From the NCBI GenBank assembly GCA_025617745.1, contig CM046853.1:59791233-59855232 (forward strand): a stretch of 64,000 bases of DNA, in the 5' to 3' direction. This stretch comes from Heliocidaris erythrogramma. Lineage: Eukaryota > Echinodermata > Echinoidea > Camarodonta > Echinometridae. Below the pieces are notes generated by a model. It did no database searches. It saw only the letters and a program-made list of their open reading frames with translations, and was not told the origin of the DNA. Shown one piece after another: positions 9,501 to 62,888 of the stretch. Position 1 is the stretch's first letter. Each line of letters starts with the position of its first letter. Both the position numbers and the translations under genes were made by a program.

Positions 9501-10058
9501 CTTACAAAAATGTCCTGTTGTACTTGTGTTGTACCTGTGTGGTACCCCTGTTGTACATGTTAGTACCACAGAAATTACCACAGGAATGAAAAATATACCA
9601 CACACGTTCTGTGGTATCGCTGTGTGGTACTCCTGTGGTACATGTAAGTTTTAAAATTTCCTGTGGTACTTCTGTGGTACCCATGTGGTACCCCTGTTGT
9701 ACATGTTAATACCACAGAAATTACCACAGGAATGAAAAATATATCACATATTCTGTGGAATCACTGTGTGGTACTCCTGTGGTACTGTCCTGTGGTATTC
9801 CTGCGGTACTGTCCTGTGGTATTCCTGTGGTACTGTCCTGTGGTAACGTCCCAAAATACAACAGGACATGTCCTGTGGTACTTTCCTGTTGTATTCCTGC
9901 GGTACTGTCCTGTGGTATTCCTGCGGTACTGTCCTGTGGTATTCCTGTGGTACTGTCCTGTGGTAACGTCCCAAAATACAACAGGACATGTCCTGTGGTA
10001 CTTTCCTGTTGTAAATCCTGTGGTACTTACCACAGAGTACCACAGGATTTTTTTGTAA
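9501..10058. mobile_element. GTGGTAC satellite-bearing element
   Basis: Ends CTTACAAAAATGTCCTGTTG and its near inverse CAGGATTTTTTTGTAAG. The interior is made of CCTGTGGTAC and CCTGTGGTATTC repeats. They include a duplicated block of about 120 bp bounded by GTAACGTCCCAAAATAC, and inverted ACCACAGGA copies. Several frames are open on both strands, a by-product of short-period repetition. It sits inside a Pyr-rich tandem unit. Confidence 0.75.
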
Positions 10059-51514: not shown

Positions 51515-51599
51515 TCAGAAAATGGGTCCTAACGAGTCAAACCAGGCTACAAGGCTGCTGTCCACAATGGCTAGGTTCTTGAATTGGTCAAAAGTTATT
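51515..51599 (-). CDS. Coding exon 11: C-terminus and stop
   Basis: Acceptor TTCCCCCAG|AA. It encodes ITFDQFKNLAIVDSSLVAWF and ends DSLGPIF before TGA. Together with exon 10 it forms a degenerate EF-hand (KNDPDQRITFDQF). A WF-DSLG ending resembles the C-terminus of calcium-binding neuronal sensor-like proteins, but I do not press that. Confidence 0.88.
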
Positions 51600-54500
51600 C
51601 TGGGGGAAAAAGATAAACACACAATGTAAATGAAACAACAATTTACAGTTACTAATAATGATTTTATCCTGGAAGTCTGAGTAAATATGGTACCCTCATA
51701 TAGATTTATATCCTGTTTGATCAAACCAACTATTGCATTTCTTTGAAGGATCAATTATGAATAGGGCTTTATGAACGATGGGTAACTCTTGAATCTTCTG
51801 TCCTAAATCCCACAGAGAACATTGCATAAAACATTTTTCATTAGTCTAGATACATCAAAATTACAAAGGGTTCTTTTATCACATGTCCAGTGTGTGGGGG
51901 CACTGTGGTATGGTGTAGGTTCACTCAATCACAAGTAGCAATTAAACACAACTTTTTTTCACCAGTAGCCAAACACAATCAGTATTGTAGCTTATCTTGT
52001 AACTTGGTAATAGGGGGATCCTTATTGACTTCTAAGCTGGTAGAGTTACATTTGAATGCAACTCTCTGTCCAAGAAACTTTGAGTATAAAAGCTATCTTT
52101 TCTGTTCACATGTGCAGTTTTCATGTATATGTATATAGAAAGTGATATTTCCATTGAGGTGATCATTATATTTTTCTGCTCCATTTTTCTGTTGTTGAAA
52201 GTATTAAGAGCATTTGAATGGATCTCTCTGAACAAGGGGCTTAAGGATACAAATTACTAGTGTTCACACAAGCACTTTTAGAATGCCTACAGAAAAGAGG
52301 GATTAGGAATTTTTTTTGGCTTTTCAATATAGATGCTATGAACTTGGTGGAACAATCTGGAAGACAAAAAGTGGTCCAGATTGAACGTTAAAGAGTACTT
52401 TTTAAATAGAAAGAGATGTATATTACAGTTTTATTTTCTTTCCCAGAGCAATTCTTTAGATTTTCATCGCTCTCGCTCTCTCTCTCTCTCTCTCCTCTCA
52501 TGAACATGAATTTGTTTCACTAGGGGTATAAATAATACACTGTACTGTCCTTTAATAATAAGACCTTTCATCTCACCTTTGGTCTGGATCATTCTTGGAC
52601 ATCTTAAAGACGTTGTCCACCATCTCCTCAATAGCATCCTGCGACATGGCCTCCATGACTGGCCACATGTCCTCCCTGTCAGTCAATCAAATCAAATCAA
52701 ATCAATGAATGCAGTGACCAAGCTATCCATTGAAAGCAGTGATCAACCTATCAATTAAACAATAAAGCGGCAGAGAATTTAACAAATAAATTTGAAACGA
52801 AATGCAAAAAGCACTCTTCATGCTACAGTACTCCTAAGATCCTCTCCTGCATTTTATTATCTTTTGTTGATCATAATTAATTCTCTCTCTCTCTGCCTAG
52901 TGTCTAAAGCAATGAAAATATTCCATAGGGTTACCAGGAAAAGGAATATTTAATCATACTCGGAACCAAGAGTCCAAAAGGATCAACAAAAATAAGAGAG
53001 ATTTTAATAAGCATTTCAGAAGCTATCTGGAAGAAATGATGACTTACTTGTTTCCTGGGTTACCAGGGAATGGGATCTTGCCATTTGCGGTTAGTTGTGC
53101 CCCAGTATCTGATGGGATAGGTGCACTGAAGAGAGACGAGACTGGACGACCCTGGTTGTCATCAAAGTTTGCCATCTGCAAAATCAAAGAATATATCCTT
53201 GATTATATTGGTAGTTCTGAATCTATTTCTACTGGTAGTCAATAATTCAATATATAGAGACTGAAAACTCCTGTTCTTTATTACAAAATGCAATAAAGTC
53301 CCACTTGATAGACATGATTGTATCTCTTCAGAATGCCATACTGGTTTTTGTCAGCATATAACATTATTCAGTTACACTGTCACACGCTTCGAACTTCCAA
53401 ATGTCTCAGACCTGATTATCAACCATTATGTCAGAAAGGTCAAGTCTGGTCACGTCGCTGACAAAGGCTGCAGCTGAACAGCTGAAAATTTGGGAGGTAA
53501 ATATCTTTGTATTGAGATCAAACGTTTAACTCTTCACCAATATTATTCATTGAGGAGTTGCGTCATTAGTGTGGATGAGACCTTTCTTTGGCTTTACAGT
53601 TTTCAAACCAAGTAATTTTTTTTTTAAATATGATTCAAAAATATTTCAAGCATAGGTACTCAGTATTCTGAAATATTAAGATTTCCAAATTAATGACACT
53701 ATTCTTAAATCTTGACAACTTAATCCAGCTGCATTATGAACTTTTAAGTTGTTGCGACTTACCATCTCTTCCTCACAAGCTTTCACCACATCTCTGACAA
53801 GCTCAATAGTGACATAGAAGTAAGCTTTGAACATCTGCCTCAGATTATCTCTACTGATGCTACCAACTCCTTCAAGGTCGTATCCCTCAAAGGCATCTAA
53901 TACAAAGAGCATATAAAAACAAAGCTGTGAGGCATTCCGACATATGCTCCGTTGACAACTGGTCCAGATTTTATTTCGCCAAAGATAAAGGGTTTGGATT
54001 AGAATTGTAATTGGGTTGTAGGTTAGGGTTAGGGTTAAGGGTTAGGGGTAAGTAGTGTTTGGTTGAGGGTTAAAGTTATGAATTTGGTTATTTGACAAGG
54101 GAGCAATTGTTGAAGGAGCAGGTGTCGTATAACTATAAAATGAGAAGCAGGATTAGTCATCACAGCCTTATATCACTGAACTCATATTAGTGATGCTCCA
54201 AAGACTGAAGCTCTAGCCTCCTTCCAGGTGGGTTGGGTTTTCCCTGATCTCAGTTAGATTATATTGTCCTCCCTTGCTCTCAATAAAACTGTTATAACGA
54301 GTCTGGAAAAGGTAGATGATTTCTCGCTATTTCTGTTTCCATGGATTAGCTTACAAACTCCAAACAGACTCAGTACAACTCAATTTCAATGACAGCAATA
54401 ACAAAAAAACTCTGCCTGATAGCAGACTACTGCTACAGAGCTCATGCTATACTCGTCTTGTAACATCACATAAGTTGACGTAAGGCCTTAGAGACCATAT

Positions 54501-57500
54501 TGCAAGATGGGCTGCATGAAAATTAAATTAGGTCCCCTATGAATGATTACTAATTTCACTTGACCTTGGGACAAAAGGACACAATTCATGAATCCGAACC
54601 GACAGGGATCAGATTTTTGCTCCAGTAACATTTTCTCCACGCTGAATTTTGTCAAAGGTTAAGGTTAGGGTTGCGATTGGGTTTCAGGAGAAGTTTAGCG
54701 TGAGGTTTATATAGTTTTGGGTTCAGAGTTGAAATTAGGAACTATTCGGTTACTATAAGGACGAACCGCAGATAACTTGTCGTCTGAACATGTATCATAC
54801 TGCTTCCACAGTTATTGAATGGGTTAATTTTGTTACGGATATAAAATTTCATTTTCATGAAATTGATCAAAAAATGATGAAAATACTCCGACACATGACT
54901 TACATTTGACCTTCTCTTGGAAGGATCCTTTGACCAGTGTGGACAGACCGCAGGTGAACTCAGCGAAGTCAATGTAGCCATCTCCATTCGCATCGTAGTA
55001 CTGCAAATCAAGACAGCTTTAGTAGATTATTAAAGACATACAGCAGAATTGGGTACTACTGAACCACTTGCAAAACATCCATGAGGCATCATAAACATGA
55101 ACAAACATAAGAATTTAAGACAAACATAACAATAGAGATACCACAGATGGAGAGAACAGGGGAGCATTTCAGCAAGTGTTTTGTCAGTGATTTTTACCGA
55201 CAACTGTTATAAGCTACTGAAATCCTTGCAAATTTGTCAGTAACTAGATGATTCTCGACTGCGCGCAGTCGAAATTTATGCCTCTGCCCTTGCCAGATCA
55301 GAAATATATCGCACATTCAAATATTTTAAATTTTCATTGAACCAGAATAACAAGAGCCCCAGGGGGCACGACACTCACCTGAGGTGGATCAATTCACATC
55401 TGGTGCAGGGGCCCCTATAAGGCCACCCAGAAAAATTTCATGAACAACTTTCATTCTTCATCTATAGAGGTATCTCTATACACAATACCAAGTCTGAGCT
55501 TCCTACCAAGTTCGGTTAAATTCCAATCATGTGTTTTGGAGAAGAAGCTGAAAATGTAAAAAGTTTATGGATGGCGGACAACTTGCCCCACCCCCCCCCC
55601 CCCCTCAAGTATGTTACCCCCACAGACCCCCTATAGGGCCACCCAGAAAAAATTCATGAACAACTTTCATTTTTCGTCTATAGAGGTATCTCCATACACA
55701 ATACCAAGTCTGAGCTATTCCTGGTTCTGGAGAAGAAGATGTTTGAAATTTACATAGCTTTTACACTTGGGGGCCCTCCCCCTGGGCCCCCTGGGGGCCA
55801 CATGTACCATTTTAGCAACTTTGGATCCCCTAACCCTAAGGATGATTCCTACCAAGTTTGGTTGAATTCCGATCATGTGTTTTGGAGAAGATCAGAATGT
55901 ACATTTTGCCTGGCAGCGCCCCCCCCCCTCCAGTATGTTACCCCCACAGGGCCCCTATAGGGCCACTCAGAGAAATTTCATGAACAACCTTCATTCTTCA
56001 TCTATAGAGGTATCTCCATACACAATACCAAGTCTGAGCTATGCCTGGTTCTGGAGAAGATGTTTGAAATTTACATAGTTTTTACAATTGGGGGCCATCC
56101 CCTTGGGCCCCCCTTGGGGCCACATGTACCATTTTAGCAACTTTTGGGTCCCCTACCCCTAAGGATGATTCCTACCAAGTTTGGTTGAATTCCGATCATG
56201 TGTTTTGGAGAAGAAGATCAGAATGTACATTTTGCCTGGCAGGGCCCCCCCCCCCTCCAGTATGTTACCCCCACAGGGCCCTATAGGGCCACTCAGAGAA
56301 ATTTCATGAACAACATTCATTCTTCATCTATAGAGGTATCTCCATACACAATACCAAGTCTGAGCTATACCTGGTTCTGGAGAAGAAGATGTTTGTAATT
56401 TACATAGCTTTTACAATTGGGGGCCCTCCCCCTGGGCCCCTGGGGGCCACATGTACCATTTTAGCAACTTTGGGTCCCCTACCCCTAAGGATGATTCCTA
56501 CCAAGTTTGGTTGAATTCCGATCATGTGTTTTGGAGAAGAAGATCAGAATGTACATTTTGCCTGGCAGGGCCCCCCCCCCCCTCCAGTATGTTACCCCCA
56601 CAGGGCCCCTATAGGGCCACTCAGAGAAATTTCATGAACAACATTCATTCTTCATCTATAGAGGTATCTCCATACACAATACCAAGTCTGAGCTATGCCT
56701 GGTTCTGGAGAAGAAGATGTTTGTAATTTACATAGCTTTTACAATTGGGGGCCCTCCCCCTGGGCCCCCCTGGGGGCCACATGTACCATTTTAGCAACTT
56801 TGGCTCCCCTACCCCTAAGGATGATTCCTACCAAGTTTGGTTGAATTCCGATCATGTGTTTTGGAGAAGAAGATCAGAATGTACATTTTGCCTGGCAGGG
56901 CCCCCCCCCCCCCCCCCCTCCAGTATGTTACCCCCACATGGCCCCTATAGGGCCACTCAGAGAAATTTCATGAACAACTTTCATTTTTCGTCTATAGAGG
57001 TATCTCCATACACAATACCAAGTCTGAGCTATTCCTGGTTCTGGAGAAGAAGATGTTTGAAATTTACATAGCTTTTACACTTGGGGGCCCTCCCCCTGGG
57101 CCCCCCTGGGGGCCACATGTACCATTTTAGCAACTTTGGATCCCCTAACCCTAAGGATGATTCCTACCAAGTTTGGTTGAATTCCGATCATGTGTTTAGG
57201 AGAAGATCAGAATGTACATTTTGCCTGGCAGCGCCCCCCCCCCCCCCCCCCCCCCTCCAGTATGTTACCCCCACAGGGCCCCTATAGGGCCACTCAGAGA
57301 AATTTCATGAACAACCTTCATTCTTCATCTATAGAGGTATCTCCATACACAATACCAAGTCTGAGCTATGCCTGGTTCTGGAGAAGAAGATGTTTGAAAT
57401 TTACATAGCTTTTACAATTGGGGGCCCTCCCCCTGGGCCCCCCTGGGGGCCACATGTACCATTTTAGCAACTTTGGGTCCCCTACCCCTAAGGATGATTC

Positions 57501-60500
57501 CTACCAAGTTTGGTTGAATTCCGATCATGGGTTTTGGAGAAGAAGATGAAAATGTAAAAAGTTAACGGACGACGGACGACGGACGACGCACGACGGACGA
57601 CGGACAAATTTCCATCGCAATAGCTCACTCGAGCCTTAGGCTCAGGTGAGCTAAAAAGCCTATAATTACATGTTAATTGACCTCTTTGACATTTGACCTT
57701 ACACCTTATAACCCGAAAGTCTAATCACTTTATCTCCTCCTAGTCATGAATACAAAATAGTTGGAACTCACCTTAAACAATCTCTCTAGAAGTAGGCTCT
57801 TCTCTAAACCAAGAGGTCCTAGGCACTGATCATAGACCTCTCTGGTGATTCCTTGCTCTTTGTTACATAGCACTCGGAACTGCTCATGTAAAGCCTCTAT
57901 CTCATACTGATCAACTAAGAATAGAAAGAAAGATGGGGGTAGCATCAATGAGAAAATTGTTTTCATTTCAAGATTATCACTGTGTTTCTTGAAATATTCT
58001 TGAGCTTTTGCTCTGAACTGCCTTTCATCTTCCCGATGGTCCCACCAGATCTGTAGAATCCTTTAACCCCTTCCATACCACCAGATTTTGAGCAATTGTC
58101 AAAAATGAACTTTCAAAACTTGAATATTACCTTTAAATGAGTTTTTTCATGAGCAAACTGGGCAAAGATACATTGAATATGAATAACCATCATATTGAAG
58201 GTGCAGGTTCCTGTATGAGGAAGAATTCTCATGCCATTCTAAGCCTCAGTGACATGTTAAAACTCATATTTTGGGGTGGGATTTGCCGCCCACCGCATGG
58301 GAGGGGTTAAAATACTTTAAAAAAATTTTTAAACACACAATGGATGTATTCAACTAGAGTCACCATTAAGCACATATTTGCTTTAAAATATTTTTCTGTA
58401 TTAAACAAATAACGCAAACAATTTTACTACAATCTTTTGTGATAATAAACATGTGTTATGAGTTTGCGATAGTAACTAAGTTTTGTTAATTACTAGATGA
58501 AAAAACATAACAAATTGACCATGGTTAATTTAAACATCCTAGTTGAATACCCCCAATTTTCCATATATTTGAACAATCTTAACAGATAATCAACATCATA
58601 TTTTTTATCATTTGCTTTAAAGACTGTAATGTGTATTAAAATTAAATGGTAATTTCTTAGTAATATATGAATGTAAACATCATATTCCATGTAATAGTAG
58701 TTCTACTTTGAAATATTAATAAGCATGCTTTTATACTTACAATGAGATATTTTCTTCAATTTGTTGACATCATCCCATGTGAGCCGTTTTATCACCTTTT
58801 CTTTCCCTGTAGGGAAACAAAAATCAATTGTGCACAGGTTTACAAATTATTTTTTAAAATACCACAAATACAAGAAAATACATTGCAGTAGAATGACATA
58901 AATAATTGTAAGTACATTCAAGAATGACATGTCTGTGTCCTGTTAACCATTTCAGGACAGGAATTATCCAAGGGCTAAATTGATCACATTTTTTTTCCTT
59001 TCAAATTGGCAACAATAAGTTTTTCTTTTAGTGCCACATGGTTCTAATAAGGTATAATATCTTTGAAAACAATATATGTGGTTTGGAATTTTGGTGAAAA
59101 GTTGGAAAAATTGCCAATTTTGGTTAAAAAAAACAATGATTTTGAACCTCTCAATTGCAAATTTAAGGATTTTAAAGCTTATTCTTGTTTTCTAAATTCC
59201 TGGCATCAAACGCAATATGGTCATGCAACAAAAATGGACATAGTGTGTTCACAATTTTTTGCTCTTTCTACTCATGTATCCAGTATATTTTTAGAGCTCT
59301 ACAGAATGGTCAAATTACACAAATGTGATTAAAAAATTCTTCAAGATTGAACACTTTATTACCTGGATAGAAAGGCTTGAAGAGCACAGTTCTAGGATTA
59401 GCCAAGGGCGGTATAGGGATTTTAATCTTGATAAATGCGTGTAGTCTGTTGTGTCTGTCATGAGGTTCGCATCGCTCGCAGATGTCATAGTCAACACAAT
59501 TAGCACACTGAAAAAAAAAATGATAAAGTAACATAAAACACTGACAGTAATTAAAGGTAAAGTTGAGTTCTGGTCATGAGATTGAATTGTAAATAAAAGA
59601 CTGTCTCAAAGCAATTGGGAAAGGTTAATTACATAGCAAATAAAAATTGGTGTATGCTGTAAGGTTTTGGAATCACCAAAATGATAAGAAATTGACTCAA
59701 TTCCGCCGAGTCACATGCACTGCACACAGAAATATGTATGTATGCGACTACACACAAATGTTTAGCCCGAACATTTCAGCTATGTCTTGTCATATTTTGA
59801 ATGTGAGGGTATTTGAACAGCAATCTGTTTTGATTTTATGAAGACTAAAATTTGAAGAAAAAAATGATGACATTCAAATATACCTTTGTCCTTCTTACCT
59901 TGTATCGAATTCCACAAATTGGACTAGCCTGGCACATATTACATGTGATGCCCCGATGTATAAAACCCTCTTCAAACAGAGAGAAAAAAGAGAAAAGGAC
60001 AAAAATTAGCATGTAATATATTTAATATTCTTTTTGAAATGATAGTCAGTCAGTAAGGATACCATTTCTGAATAAAGAACAGATTGTTGAAAAAGAAAAC
60101 AGATGAATTCCGCGTACACAGCCACTTTTGCGCAGTCATTAACAAATGATGCGCCACAAGCGTTCATTTTGTTATGACAATTAAAATTATTTCACTAAAA
60201 TCAAGATAAAATAAATCTCAGAATACCACCGCAGAATAGGACTGACATCCCACCACATACAAAATTTCTACACATATTAAATGGGGTTTCCATCAAGTCC
60301 TTTGTGACTAAACTTACAAAAAGGCATGTTTAAGTAGAAAAAAGGAAAACAATACATATTATGTACTAGTTGTTGACAGTAAGCCCTCATCTGATTTGAG
60401 GTTATAAATATAAAACTTGTGTACAGAACCTGAAACTACAATTTGGTCAAAATTGTCACTACTTTTAGTTTTATAATCAAAGGATAAAGTAATGAAGGGA

Positions 60501-62888
60501 AGTCATAACCAATCATCAGTTCATAGATACAAGATGGATGGGGGGAATTCGATGATATTATCTTTAATACTGTCATCAAACATCAACACTAAAACAATGC
60601 AAGATATTCTTATTCTATCACCTATCTTTGCTTGGTCTTCTGCAATATTGAAAACAATACAAAATATTCTTATTCTATCACCTATCTTTGCTTGGTCTTC
60701 TGCAATATTGAAGACAATACAAAATATTCTTATTCTATCACCTTTCTTTGCTTGGTCTTCTGCAATATTGAAGACAATACAAAATATTCTTATTCTATCA
60801 CCTATCTTTGCTTGGTCTTCTGCAATATTGAAAACAATACAAAATATTCTTATTCTATCACCTATCTTTGCTTGGTCTTCTGCAATATTGAAGACAATAC
60901 AAAATATTCTTATTCTATCACCTTTCTTTGCTTGGTCTTCTGCAATATTGAAGACAATACAAAATATTCTTATTCTATCACCTATCTTTGCTTGGTCTTC
61001 TGCAATATTGAAGACAATACAAAATATTCTTATTCTATCACCTTTCTTTGCTTGGTCTTCTGCAATATTGAAGAGTAAATTAAGCAGGCTCTGATTATCT
61101 TCATGTCTATACAGCTGGTCTGCATCACCACCGCCACCACCACCAGCCCGAACGCCTCCTCCTCCTCCTCCTCCTCCTGCCCCTCCTCTTCCTCTTCCTA
61201 TCACTTCAGCTGTCACAGACATGTCCGTCACTGTCAAAGCATGCTGTGAGGTCAGGCCAGGGTTGTTGTCAGTGAGGAAGAGGGATCGTTGAGTACTGAA
61301 TGCTGTGGTCCCATCCAGGGTATCCATGAGAATGGTATCTGGTGTAACTGGGCGGGGCTCTAAAGGTGAACGATTGTTTCTTGCATCTAGGATAATACAA
61401 ATCATATAACCTCTATAACATCACATTTTCCTTATATTTATTTTGACTATACTGCTTTACCTTCATCCAGTTAATTTTCTGTATTATTGACTACTAGGTG
61501 TAACAAATTAGCTTTCAAGATGGATCAGTACTTTATACTGAAGCATTAGGCCTGTTGATGAATTTTCTGTTCTAATCATGCTTATCTTGAAGAATCCATA
61601 GAAAGAGAACAATTTTAATTGTTTATAGTACAGGGATGCCACTAGGACTACTAAAAAAAAGTAGGAAAGTATTGTGGGTCTGGAGTCGGAGCCCCTCGCG
61701 GGGTCCAGGGGCAGCGCCACGGTGGGGGTGCAAGGGGGCAAAGGCCCCTTGAAGCTAGAGCTTTTTCTCAATCAGAACTGCCCAGAAAGGCACCAATTGA
61801 CACTTTTCATAATGCAACACTACTTACTCCAATTTACAGTATTGACATTTGTTGGTCAGATGCCCTCGTTAGAGACAGATTTCATCGATAGACTCTCCAG
61901 TGCAATGCAACATCCCCAAACTAAACAGTAGACTACACAAATTTCCACATGTGGGACTTACATAGTTTGATGATGCAACAACTCCACTTTGCTGCAAACA
62001 CGGGCTAAAATGTTTGTTTCCTTCCTTTCCCTGTAATATTCCATGATGATGATGACAATTTACCCCAGATTTTTCCTCAATAGTTGTATATTATCCATGA
62101 AAATACCATGGAGACAACATCGCCGCGAGCTCCGATTCCACGCGATCAAACATCGCATGCTTACATACGAACACGTACACGTACATACACAAGCATACAC
62201 ACAGATATAGTATGCATTACATGTGCAACGCTAGCGCGCGCCGACACGCATGGTCGTCAGGTCGTTACACATACCATACATGTACATGCAGCATGCACGT
62301 ACGGAATGAGGTGAAAGAGAGACAAGGAAAGAAAATGACCAGTTGGCAGATACATCGAGAGGCGGCCGGATTGAGAGATGGAAAGAGAGTCTCAGCCGAA
62401 AAAGTCGGAAGTTTGACGGACGTCGGAAAAAGTCGGAAATCCGACAAAAGTCGGAAAAGTGGCATCCCTGATAGTATAAAACGTCTTAAGAGAGCAAAAA
62501 GAAAATATTTCAGTTATATATCGAAGGAATCTATAAAATACAATATAATAATGACGAAAGAAAAACTTTAGTTTCTTTGCTCTCTCTCCCTCACTTTCTC
62601 CTTTAAAATCTTTAATGAAGTTAACCTTAGTAGATATATGGTCACCAAACTGTCTCAAAACGATCAACAACTTGGCAAATTCAGGGTAATGTATTATATT
62701 TTCTAATGTTGATTTGGTTGGTGTGACTGGGGAATCAAAGGGAGCTCACCATTGGTGCTTTGAATCCTATGTCTAAGACTGTCCCTGTAGTGCCACAGCA
62801 GAGCAGCCGAAGCAACAGTGACAGCACCGGCTGACACACCCACTAGGAAGCTTGACCATGATGGTGGACTAGCTGAACCCTCAGACAT
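51515..62888 (-). CDS. ZZ-type zinc finger and EF-hand protein with N-terminal membrane anchor (11 coding exons)
   Basis: Coding exons, in transcript order: 62888-62750, 61386-61042, 59969-59899, 59507-59363, 58806-58741, 57914-57772, 55000-54904, 53896-53763, 53175-53048, 52675-52577, 51599-51515. They total 1452 nt, or 483 aa plus stop. All introns are GT/AG and the phases match at every junction. Domains: hydrophobic segment about residues 14-31 (likely signal anchor); Gly/Arg-rich stretch in exon 2; ZZ finger 171-208 with CxxC pairs TCNMC, KCANC and DICERC plus closing histidines; EF-hand loop 306-317 (DANGDGYIDFAE, canonical); degenerate EF loop 342-353; possible third EF region 449-460. 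ZZ domains are known to bind zinc and usually mediate protein or histone-tail contacts; EF-hands bind calcium. A membrane-tethered calcium-responsive adaptor is inference. I do not recognise a named orthologue. Exon 2 has alternative in-frame donors that lengthen the protein by up to 140 aa. Confidence 0.88.
52577..52675 (-). CDS. Coding exon 10: helix before the third EF region
   Basis: Acceptor GACTGACAG|GGAGG, donor AAAG|GTGAGA. It encodes KEDMWPVMEAMSQDAIEEMV and then DNVFKMSKNDPDQR. The acceptor lies beside a plus-strand ATCAA pentamer repeat (52684-52703), so its upstream tract is repeat-derived. Confidence 0.87.
52684..52703. repeat. ATCAA pentamer repeat at the exon 10 acceptor
   Basis: About four repeats (AATCAAATCAAATCAAATCA). 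On the sense strand this makes the T-rich tract just upstream of the exon 10 AG acceptor. Confidence 0.7.
53048..53175 (-). CDS. Coding exon 9: spacer between EF-hand modules
   Basis: Acceptor GATTTTGCAG|ATGG, donor ACAA|GTAAGT. It encodes MANFDDNQGRPVSSLFSAPI and then a Gly/Pro/Asn-rich stretch ending PFPGNPGN. The composition suggests a flexible loop. Confidence 0.85.
53763..53896 (-). CDS. Coding exon 8: second, degenerate EF-hand
   Basis: Acceptor TTGTATTAG|AT, donor GATG|GTAAGT. It encodes YAFEGYDLEGVGSISRDNLR and then a helix ending KACEEEM. The loop DLEGVGSISRDN has Asn instead of Glu at position 12 and Val at position 5, so calcium affinity is probably reduced or lost. Confidence 0.9.
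54010..54055. repeat. TTAGGG-like short tract in intron 7
   Basis: GGTTAGGGTTAGGGTTAAGG and degenerate extensions. It resembles telomere repeats but is too short and imperfect to be a telomere. Confidence 0.6.
54904..55000 (-). CDS. Coding exon 7: canonical EF-hand
   Basis: Acceptor GATTTGCAG|TA, donor AAAT|GTAAGT. It encodes YYDANGDGYIDFAEFTCGLS. The loop DANGDGYIDFAE has Asp at 1, Asn at 3, Asp at 5, Tyr at 7 and Glu at 12, as expected for calcium binding. Confidence 0.92.
55159..55250. mobile_element. Truncated GGGG-CATTTCA element
   Basis: Starts GGGGAGCATTTCAGCAAGTG and contains GTGATTTTTACCGACAACTG, as in the complete copy at 18359-18492. The right terminus is missing. Confidence 0.6.
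55350..57655. mobile_element. Tandem-array element with subterminal inverted repeats (intron 6)
   Basis: Starts AAGAGCCCCAGGGGGCAC then CTCACCTGAGG; ends CCTTAGGCTCAGGTGAGC, so CTCACCTGAG is inverted at the two ends. Inside are about seven units. The first spacing is about 219 bp; the others are 324-338 bp. They are marked by CCTATAGGGCCAC and by GAACAACNTTCATT. Each unit has a poly-C run; the longest is 22 C near 57234-57255. A short ACGGACG repeat precedes the right end. The frames open across it change register between units and look spurious. It fills most of intron 6. Confidence 0.8.
57659..57762. repeat. Fragment of the TGACCT-rich repeat
   Basis: Closely matches 39220-39325, including TTAATTGACCTCTTTGACA and ACACCTTATAACCC. 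On the other side of the intron 6 array, 55274-55290 has TTTATGCCTCTGCCC, which resembles the terminal motif of the 39-kb element. The array may therefore have inserted into an older copy. Confidence 0.6.
57772..57914 (-). CDS. Coding exon 6: EF-hand pair, first helix region
   Basis: Acceptor TATTCTTAG|TT, donor AAG|GTGAGT. It encodes FDQYEIEALHEQFRVL and then GLEKSLLLERLFK. The pattern is a calcineurin-B/recoverin-like helical entry (DQYEIEALHEQF) without a canonical loop, leading into the EF loop of exon 7. Confidence 0.88.
58067..58306. mobile_element. TTAA-flanked non-autonomous element (intron 5)
   Basis: TTAA on both sides (58063-58066 and 58307-58310). Inverted termini are of the type CCCCTTCCATACC. 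It is a reverse-orientation relative of 50973-51208. TTAA duplications are typical of piggyBac and Kolobok transposons; the exact superfamily is unknown. Confidence 0.7.
58741..58806 (-). CDS. Coding exon 5: linker
   Basis: 66 nt between CCCTACAG and T|GTAAGT. It encodes a charged linker KEKVIKRLTWDDVNKLKKIS. Phase 1 on both sides, so it is a symmetrical exon that could be skipped without a frameshift. Confidence 0.82.
58947..59328. mobile_element. TTAA-flanked element (intron 4)
   Basis: Flanked by TTAA at 58943-58946 and 59329-59332. It starts CCATTTCAGGACAGG. The sequence is repeated in reverse orientation at about 25691-26087. It occupies two thirds of intron 4 and ends about 35 nt before exon 4. 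Confidence 0.68.
59363..59507 (-). CDS. Coding exon 4: second half of ZZ finger
   Basis: Acceptor is a pure T run then CAG; donor CCAG|GTAATA. It encodes CANCVDYDICERCEPHDRHN and then LHAFIKIKIPIPPLANPRT. The CxxC, DxCxxC and following His residues complete a ZZ zinc-binding set, so the finger should fold. The Pro-rich tail links to the helical region. Confidence 0.92.
59899..59969 (-). CDS. Coding exon 3: first half of ZZ finger
   Basis: Acceptor TGTTTGAAG|AGGG, donor CAAG|GTAAGA. The 71 nt encode EGFIHRGITCNMC and PICGIRYK, holding the first CxxC pair of the ZZ domain and the first Cys of the YKC motif region. Phase 1 in, phase 0 out. Confidence 0.88.
60601..61080 (-). repeat. 60-bp minisatellite (8 units) across the exon 2 donor
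   Basis: Eight units of exactly 60 bp, nearly identical. They differ mainly at CCTATC versus CCTTTC and GAAAAC versus GAAGAC on the plus strand. On the sense strand each unit holds about 31 nt of exon end (FNIAEDQAK-K/I) plus about 29 nt of intron start, so the duplicated segment spans the 5' splice site. All units have AG|GTGATA. The translated array has no stop. Past the last unit the frame runs to a stop near 60521. Reading along the plus strand, the variant order repeats every three units (1-3 and 4-6 match), suggesting recent unequal exchange. Confidence 0.93.
61042..61386 (-). CDS. Coding exon 2: low-complexity linker, shortest form
   Basis: Acceptor TTATCCTAG|AT is phase 1 and restores Asp47. 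The exon codes a Ser/Thr/Pro-rich linker, then a Gly/Arg tract (plus-strand GGN/CCN repeats at about 61125-61200), then SLLNLLFNIAEDQAKK. The shortest form ends at donor AAAG|GTGATA, phase 1. Joining to exon 3 gives KKEGFIHRGITC, which reads cleanly into the ZZ finger. The donor sits in the first of eight 60-bp tandem units. Seven more identical donors follow every 60 nt, down to 60622, all in frame. Confidence 0.82.
61125..61200 (-). repeat. Gly-coding GGN repeat in exon 2
   Basis: On the plus strand this is CACCACCGCCACC and then CTCCTCCTCCTCC. On the sense strand it codes Gly-rich runs with scattered Arg, Val and Ala. Triplet repeats of this kind commonly vary in length between alleles. 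Confidence 0.8.
61631..62470. mobile_element. 840-bp non-autonomous DNA element in intron 1
   Basis: Begins CAGGGATGCCACT and ends with its exact inverse AGTGGCATCCCTG. The direct repeat ATAGTA flanks both ends (61625-61630 and 62471-62476). CAGGG-type termini resemble hAT elements, but those usually make 8-bp duplications. The interior has a G+C-rich block and no transposase. The right end carries repeated GTCGGAAA motifs. Confidence 0.75.
62750..62888 (-). CDS. Coding exon 1: start codon and membrane anchor
   Basis: 46 codons plus 1 nt, beginning MSEGSASPPSW. Residues 14-31 are hydrophobic and small-residue-rich (LVGVSAGAVTVASAALL), followed by the basic stretch HYRDSLRHR, the pattern of an N-terminal signal anchor. 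The ATG has A at -3. The donor is ATG|GTGAGC. An AG acceptor lies just upstream (exon start about 62899, after TTTGTAAACAG), so a 5' UTR intron is likely. Confidence 0.8.

Follow-up and report, generated by a model that had tools for sequence, protein, structure and literature searches.

A minisatellite of eight 60-bp units lies across the junction between exon 2 and intron 2 of a gene encoding a protein with a ZZ finger and EF-hands in the sea urchin Heliocidaris erythrogramma, and each of its units carries a predicted splice donor that would keep the reading frame. The gene is read from the minus strand of a 64,000-nucleotide stretch of DNA (assembly GCA_025617745.1, contig CM046853.1, positions 59,791,233 to 59,855,232), which we refer to as the window and in whose numbering all coordinates are given (Table 1). 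The explanation that we favour, with a probability of about 0.5, is that a local tandem duplication of the splice junction multiplied the donor, the donor of unit 1 making the main mRNA and the later donors giving rise to minor, longer forms.

The array repeats the end of an exon together with the start of an intron

Analysis with Tandem Repeats Finder (TRF) revealed eight 60-bp units at window positions 60594-61074, across the exon 2/intron 2 junction of the minus-strand gene (period 60, 8.0 copies, 97% matches, 0 indels, score 913). Each unit is made of 31 nt of the exon 2 end (TTCAATATTGCAGAAGACCAAGCAAAG..., through the G preceding the GT) and the first 29 nt of intron 2. Read along the minus strand, unit 1 begins at 61072, unit 2 at 61012 and each further unit 60 bases lower, down to 60652. 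Only 4 of the 60 positions vary between units. Site 29, which is the -3 base of the donor, is A in units 1, 3 and 6, where it encodes K, and T in units 2, 4, 5, 7 and 8, where it encodes I; site 60 is either C or T, and sites 50 and 54 differ in unit 8 only. Unit 8, positioned at the edge of the array, departs furthest from the others, with 2 to 4 differences, and the order of the A/T variants is the same in units 3-5 and 6-8. Both observations are consistent with growth of the array by a block of three units.

The array was matched at one place in the 1.06-Gb genome, and a 27-base core of the unit gave 8 genome matches at up to 3 mismatches, all within the array, with 0 matches for the reversed control; copies elsewhere, as a dispersed (mobile) repeat would have, were not seen for the 60-bp array. 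Intron 6 of the same gene harbors another tandem repeat with a 336-bp unit (5.9 copies, window 55593-57556, by TRF), and this unit is dispersed in the genome: out of 564 first-look candidates 40 were scored, yielding at least 127 match pieces, many of them in neighbouring pairs. The 336-bp repeat might therefore be a mobile element's tandem core. The single genome match of the 60-bp array, as opposed to the dispersal of the 336-bp repeat, suggests that the array arose as a local event and not as a dispersed repeat.

An error of the assembly, in the unit number or in the array as such, is very improbable. Although the array is known from a single assembly, its 480 bp would easily be spanned by long reads, the mixed order of variants among the units is not what simple stutter is expected to produce, and the contig carrying the array is 78.6 Mb long.

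All eight donors would join exon 3 in frame

The first intron bases of donors 1 to 8 are 61041, 60981, 60921, 60861, 60801, 60741, 60681 and 60621. Each of the eight units reads FNIAEDQAK, then K or I, then G/GTGATA. All donors (8 of 8) are in phase 1 and every one of them joins exon 3 in frame; over the eight modelled exons the spliced frame is without stop for each of the eight ends of exon 2, and the modelled products lengthen by 20 residues at a time, from 380 with the unit-1 donor to 520 when unit 8 supplies the donor. The possible insert is 0 to 7 blocks of the sequence FNIAEDQAK(K/I)GDRIRIFCIV, placed between a Gly-rich linker and the ZZ finger.

These results bear out much of a first-pass annotation of the same DNA, which had described eight exact 60-bp units with donors at 61041, 60981, 60921 and on to 60621, all of them in phase 1 and joined in frame to exon 3, and with room for 0 to 7 extra blocks of 20 residues before the ZZ finger. 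TRF and the unit coordinates agree with the first two points, the stop-free modelled products (8 of 8) with the third, and for the extra blocks both the arithmetic and the anatomy, as given by the gene model and Pfam, hold. Its statement that all units share one coding end and one donor stands for FNIAEDQAK and AG/GTGATA (8 of 8) and falls for the complete donor, which is AAG in three units and TAG in five. The acceptor was placed at 59970, which is the last base of the intron, exon 3 beginning at 59969. Neither the A/T difference at -3 nor the same-phase TTGCAG sites described below had been mentioned.

The highest 19-residue hydropathy of the insert block is 0.64, indicating that by this measure the block is not a membrane segment. 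A single-sequence structure model of the array translation (174 residues) places one strand of about 11-12 residues in each 20-residue unit at low confidence, with a mean predicted local distance difference test (pLDDT) score of 36.6-65.4 over five models, and such a model would neither support nor exclude a folded repeat. We consider improbable a regulated ladder in which splicing makes substantial use of many donors, or of all eight, to produce proteins with 0 to 7 blocks, with a unit number that varies between individuals. The common phase and the absence of stops from all modelled products agree with such a ladder, as do the position of all donors within the top 10 of the region and U1 pairing energies that are equal within 0.2 kcal/mol (see below). 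But exon 2 would lengthen to 765 nt, half of each 20-residue block is derived from intron sequence, selection on the block is not indicated (4 variable sites in 60) and the structure models do not decide either way.

Frame preservation needs no selection

The unit stayed open in 4478 of 7342 cases (61%) in which the 31-nt exon end was combined with a 29-nt intron window of the same gene, and in 3234 of 5349 (60%) when the 336-bp repeat of intron 6 was left out. Simulated duplications with a length of 41-130 were both in frame and open in 30381 of 201510 cases (15%), or in 21855 of 139050 (16%) without the intron 6 repeat. Mononucleotide shuffling of the whole unit left the given frame open in 12%; the intron-window control outweighs this shuffle, given that half of the unit is exon sequence and was open already before duplication. 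The array itself is beyond chance and its frame only mildly so. Given the window and duplication controls, frame preservation needs no selection and is weak evidence of design. The open frame does imply that longer products, if made, would not be cut short.

On the plus strand, 2 of the 3 frames through the unit are open as well. Two plus-strand open reading frames (ORFs), one of 205 and one of 161 residues, cross the array between window positions 60477 and 61094; they are a consequence of the repeat and should not be taken as signs of a gene.

These figures bear on the possibility that the array is a silent passenger, i.e. that one donor, most likely that of unit 1, is used while the other seven units are inert intron, which we regard as conceivable though on balance unlikely. 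Openness of the unit is cheap by both the window and the duplication control, two of the three frames on the opposite strand are open too, and with splicing at unit 1 the exon is at its shortest (345 nt) and the protein is free of inserts. However, units 1, 3 and 6 share the nine-base donor and its local context, and an exclusive choice among them would rest on distance alone.

The eight donors are near-equal in predicted strength

Ranking of the 78 GTs in exon 2 and intron 2 with a generic donor matrix placed the three AAG/GTGATA donors (2.5 bits) as the top 3 and all five TAG/GTGATA donors (1.0 bits) in the top 10. The array donors are 8 of the 10 best GTs, and the remaining two (60317 and 60253) lie behind stops in frame. 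By the same matrix the exon 2 donor, with 2.5 or 1.0 bits, is the weakest of the gene, the seven others scoring 3.2-8.1 bits, which makes competition at exon 2 plausible.

According to the explanation that we favour, a short stretch over the exon 2/intron 2 junction, comprising the 31-nt coding end and the 29-nt intron start, would have been duplicated in tandem, probably by slippage, and the duplicated stretch would have grown to eight near-identical units. A short T/C run is common to the flanks and the junctions of the units (CTCTT before unit 1, TTGT[C/T]TT between units and TTGTTTT after unit 8), and these shared bases at the unit ends would fit slippage or microhomology repair. Each unit would bring a rather weak donor and a purine-rich exonic stretch, and eight near-equal donors would compete for the one exon 3 acceptor. 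The unit-1 donor at 61041, whose junction sequence is LLFNIAEDQAKKEGFIHRGITC, is expected to give most of the mRNA because it yields the shortest exon and a protein without insert. Downstream donors would be used at a lower level, first those of units 3 and 6, which carry the same nine-base site as unit 1, and would add multiples of 20 residues between the Gly-rich linker and the ZZ finger; minor longer forms would be expected as in the human gene IFI6 (see below). The mechanism of duplication, the donors used and the extent of their use, and any variation of the unit number between animals are what we infer.

Several points weigh against this explanation. The donor matrix consists of generic frequencies taken from general knowledge and not learned from this species. 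Pairing with the 5' end of U1 amounts to -6.9 kcal/mol for the TAG sites and -6.7 kcal/mol for the AAG sites, so unit 1 is not favoured; among the GTs of the intron, the one at 60253 pairs better (-7.3 kcal/mol) and the one at 60256 equally well as the AAG sites (-6.7 kcal/mol), and the donor of exon 7 pairs less well (-5.4 kcal/mol) than all eight array donors. Given that the matrix and U1 pairing disagree, the eight donors appear near-equal, and the winner would depend largely on position. When identical donors compete, the one closest to the acceptor is often preferred, and by this rule unit 8 rather than unit 1 would win. The idea of growth in three-unit blocks fits imperfectly, since three positions distinguish unit 5 from unit 8. 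Furthermore, the unit-1 junction is presumed to be ancestral; wording similar to this junction occurs in ZZ/EF-hand proteins of other organisms.

Acceptor-like sites lie in phase with the donors

Each unit also carries the acceptor-like site TTGCAG/AAG behind a T-rich stretch, in the same phase as the donors. Among the 111 AGs in exon 2 and intron 2, the exon 3 acceptor ranked first (8.2) and 8 of the next 9 were the TTGCAG sites (3.7-5.1), all of them above the score of the acceptor modelled for exon 2 (1.1). This ranking comes from a generic acceptor model, likewise drawn from general knowledge, that discriminates poorly, 3 of the 7 modelled acceptors of the gene (1.1, -1.3 and 2.8) scoring below the TTGCAG sites. 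Formally, a unit can be divided into an exon of 18 nt and an intron part of 42 nt, and the frame is kept for every pairing of donor and acceptor.

It is quite doubtful that the TTGCAG sites are used too. In that case each unit would act as an 18-nt exon (EDQAK plus K or I) with a 42-nt intron, or introns would run from an early donor to a later TTGCAG, and the tandem duplication would have created introns. The rank of the TTGCAG sites and the equal phase of acceptor and donor agree with this reading, but an intron of 42 nt is below the usual size of animal introns and an intron would therefore need to extend over at least two units, the acceptor model separates true sites poorly, and another AG starts 29 nt upstream of the AG of each TTGCAG site. 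A precedent is given by intron gain through tandem duplication of AGGT segments, which is discussed for the Rogers model, ATP2A1 (a duplication-born intron), the fission yeast genes SPOG_01682 and SOCG_00815 and potato RdRp (PMC4974935). In fission yeast, several 24-bp copies jointly form an intron, and the potato duplication extends across the border between an intron and an exon (PMC4974935). What the present array has in common with the cases described there is a tandem duplication that multiplies AG/GT; with 8 AG/GT and 8 TTGCAG sites, one copy could supply a donor and another an acceptor. In contrast to them, an existing donor was multiplied here, and a new intron is only a candidate.

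In its strongest form, a unit would be a complete in-phase splicing cassette of TTGCAG, 18 nt of coding sequence and a donor, allowing combinatorial in-frame proteins in steps of 20 and 6 residues whose range would shift with the unit number between individuals; we give this little credence.

Relation to known splice-site minisatellites

A minisatellite that provides multiple splice donor sites is reportedly the subject, by its title, of a 1995 paper by Turri, Cuin and Porter on human IFI6 (6-16, G1P3). The IFI6 unit is known as a donor-like element of 12 bp in about 26 copies, in an array that starts near the exon end and with a unit length divisible by 3. Common to both arrays are minisatellite units that supply donors, as splice donors in IFI6 and as predicted ones here. 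They differ in that the present unit is 60 bp long, occurs in 8 copies and combines 31 nt of coding sequence from the exon end with 29 nt of intron sequence and an acceptor-like site. In alternative transcripts of IFI6, two of the downstream repeat units act as donors, and the isoforms encoded differ (PMC4526556).

Like IFI6, the gene described here has a tandem array over the 3' end of an exon with a donor in each unit, as judged from the sequence and the gene model, and splicing from any of the units would leave the reading frame intact (all 8 modelled products, 20-residue steps). The kind is thus already known, from IFI6 and from duplications across splice borders, and by its anatomy the present array would belong to it. 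The first-pass annotation had called the arrangement unusual, which is fair, although the human IFI6 minisatellite is a precedent. The present array differs in the size of the unit (relative to IFI6 as given above), in the combination of exon and intron sequence within the unit and in the acceptor-like site in the same phase.

A further comparison is offered by the prawn Rlec lectins, which carry an in-frame coding minisatellite of 30 or 33 bp in exon 2 with 1-9 units and show alternative splicing in the family (PMC7536079). An in-frame coding minisatellite in exon 2 of an invertebrate gene is common to both systems; the Rlec repeats, unlike those here, lie inside the exon, and alternative sites have been described there for exons 5 and 6, along with transcripts that skip exon 3 or exon 5 (PMC7536079). 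No earlier report of the present array was found in the collection of literature searched, sea urchin papers included, by titles and abstract starts and with the terms used. Eight near-identical donors that differ in position and in the -3 base make the array a natural test of the choice among equal splice sites, and of the way in which a repeat of this kind might convert intron sequence into variation of protein length while leaving the gene unbroken.

The gene and its encoded protein

The gene was modelled as eight minus-strand exons separated by GT-AG introns, and all product lengths were counted to exon 8. Two further likely exons (52675-52577 and 51599-51515) fit each other, whereas the phase from exon 8 to 52675 is mismatched, so the model probably lacks a small intervening exon. 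The protein starts with a single hydrophobic stretch (residues 13-31, mean hydropathy 1.9) followed by the Gly-rich linker. Pfam matches above the cut-offs (PF00569, 42.2 bits with a cut-off of 21.4; PF13499, 38.7 with 30; PF13405, 44.8 with 25) locate the ZZ finger at residues 165-204 and the EF-hands at residues 298-359, identifying the product as a ZZ plus EF-hand protein.

A search of the genome with this protein returned 36 matches, 7 of which are the gene's own exons; the 29 others, with 27-47% identity, align with the ZZ or the EF-hand region of the protein. Among these 36 matches there was no sign of another copy of the gene in which a single-unit state might be preserved, and a search for relatives of 88 residues around the junction gave 0 confirmed cases in viral contigs (3 pattern matches) or in bacterial and archaeal contigs (34).

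Table 1. Positions of the array, its candidate splice sites and the exons of the gene in the window.
Feature	Position	Strand	Remark
Tandem array, eight 60-bp units	60594..61074	(-)	TRF, unit coordinates
Donor of unit 1, AAG/GTGATA	61041..61042	(-)	Last exon base 61042; 380-residue product to exon 8; predicted main donor
Donor of unit 3, AAG/GTGATA	60921..60922	(-)	+40 residues
Donor of unit 6, AAG/GTGATA	60741..60742	(-)	+100 residues
TAG/GTGATA donors of units 2 (60981), 4 (60861), 5 (60801), 7 (60681) and 8 (60621)	60621..60982	(-)	
Eight acceptor-like TTGCAG/AAG sites, phase 1	60639..61059	(-)	First base after AG: 61059, 60999, 60939, 60879, 60819, 60759, 60699, 60639
Exon 1	62750..62888	(-)	ATG at 62888; hydrophobic segment, residues 13-31
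Exon 2	60622..61386	(-)	First base 61386; donor-dependent length, 345 nt (end 61042) to 765 nt (end 60622); Gly-rich linker
Exon 3	59899..59969	(-)	Start of ZZ finger
Exon 4	59363..59507	(-)	Remainder of ZZ finger
Exon 5	58741..58806	(-)	Gene model
Exon 6	57772..57914	(-)	Gene model
Exon 7	54904..55000	(-)	EF-hand
Exon 8	53763..53896	(-)	Second EF-hand of the pair
Likely later exon (EDMWPVMEAM...)	52577..52675	(-)	Predicted
Likely last exon, ends ...SLGPIF and stop	51515..51599	(-)	Predicted

Other repeats and contigs

The COX1-bearing contig of the assembly has 12,905 bases, which is under the size of a usual animal mitochondrial genome, so this contig is probably incomplete in the assembly. 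In an alignment of its COX1, read with the echinoderm code, to the best PDB match (8d4t_N), 3 of the 4 aligned AAA codons stand opposite Asn, 1 opposite Gly and 0 opposite Lys, and the 10 ATA codons stand opposite Ile (4), Val (2), Leu (2) and Met (2), as counted by eye. TGA occupies Trp positions, and COX1 is followed by tRNA-Arg. Taken with the genetic code and mitochondrial gene order of echinoderms, these features suggest a sea urchin or sea cucumber. Intron 1 of the gene contains a 28-bp repeat in 2.2 copies (window 62398-62458). Elsewhere in the window, at 9767-9965, there is a 24-bp tandem array of 8.3 copies with 76% matches, which is crossed by ORFs of at least 90 residues on both strands.

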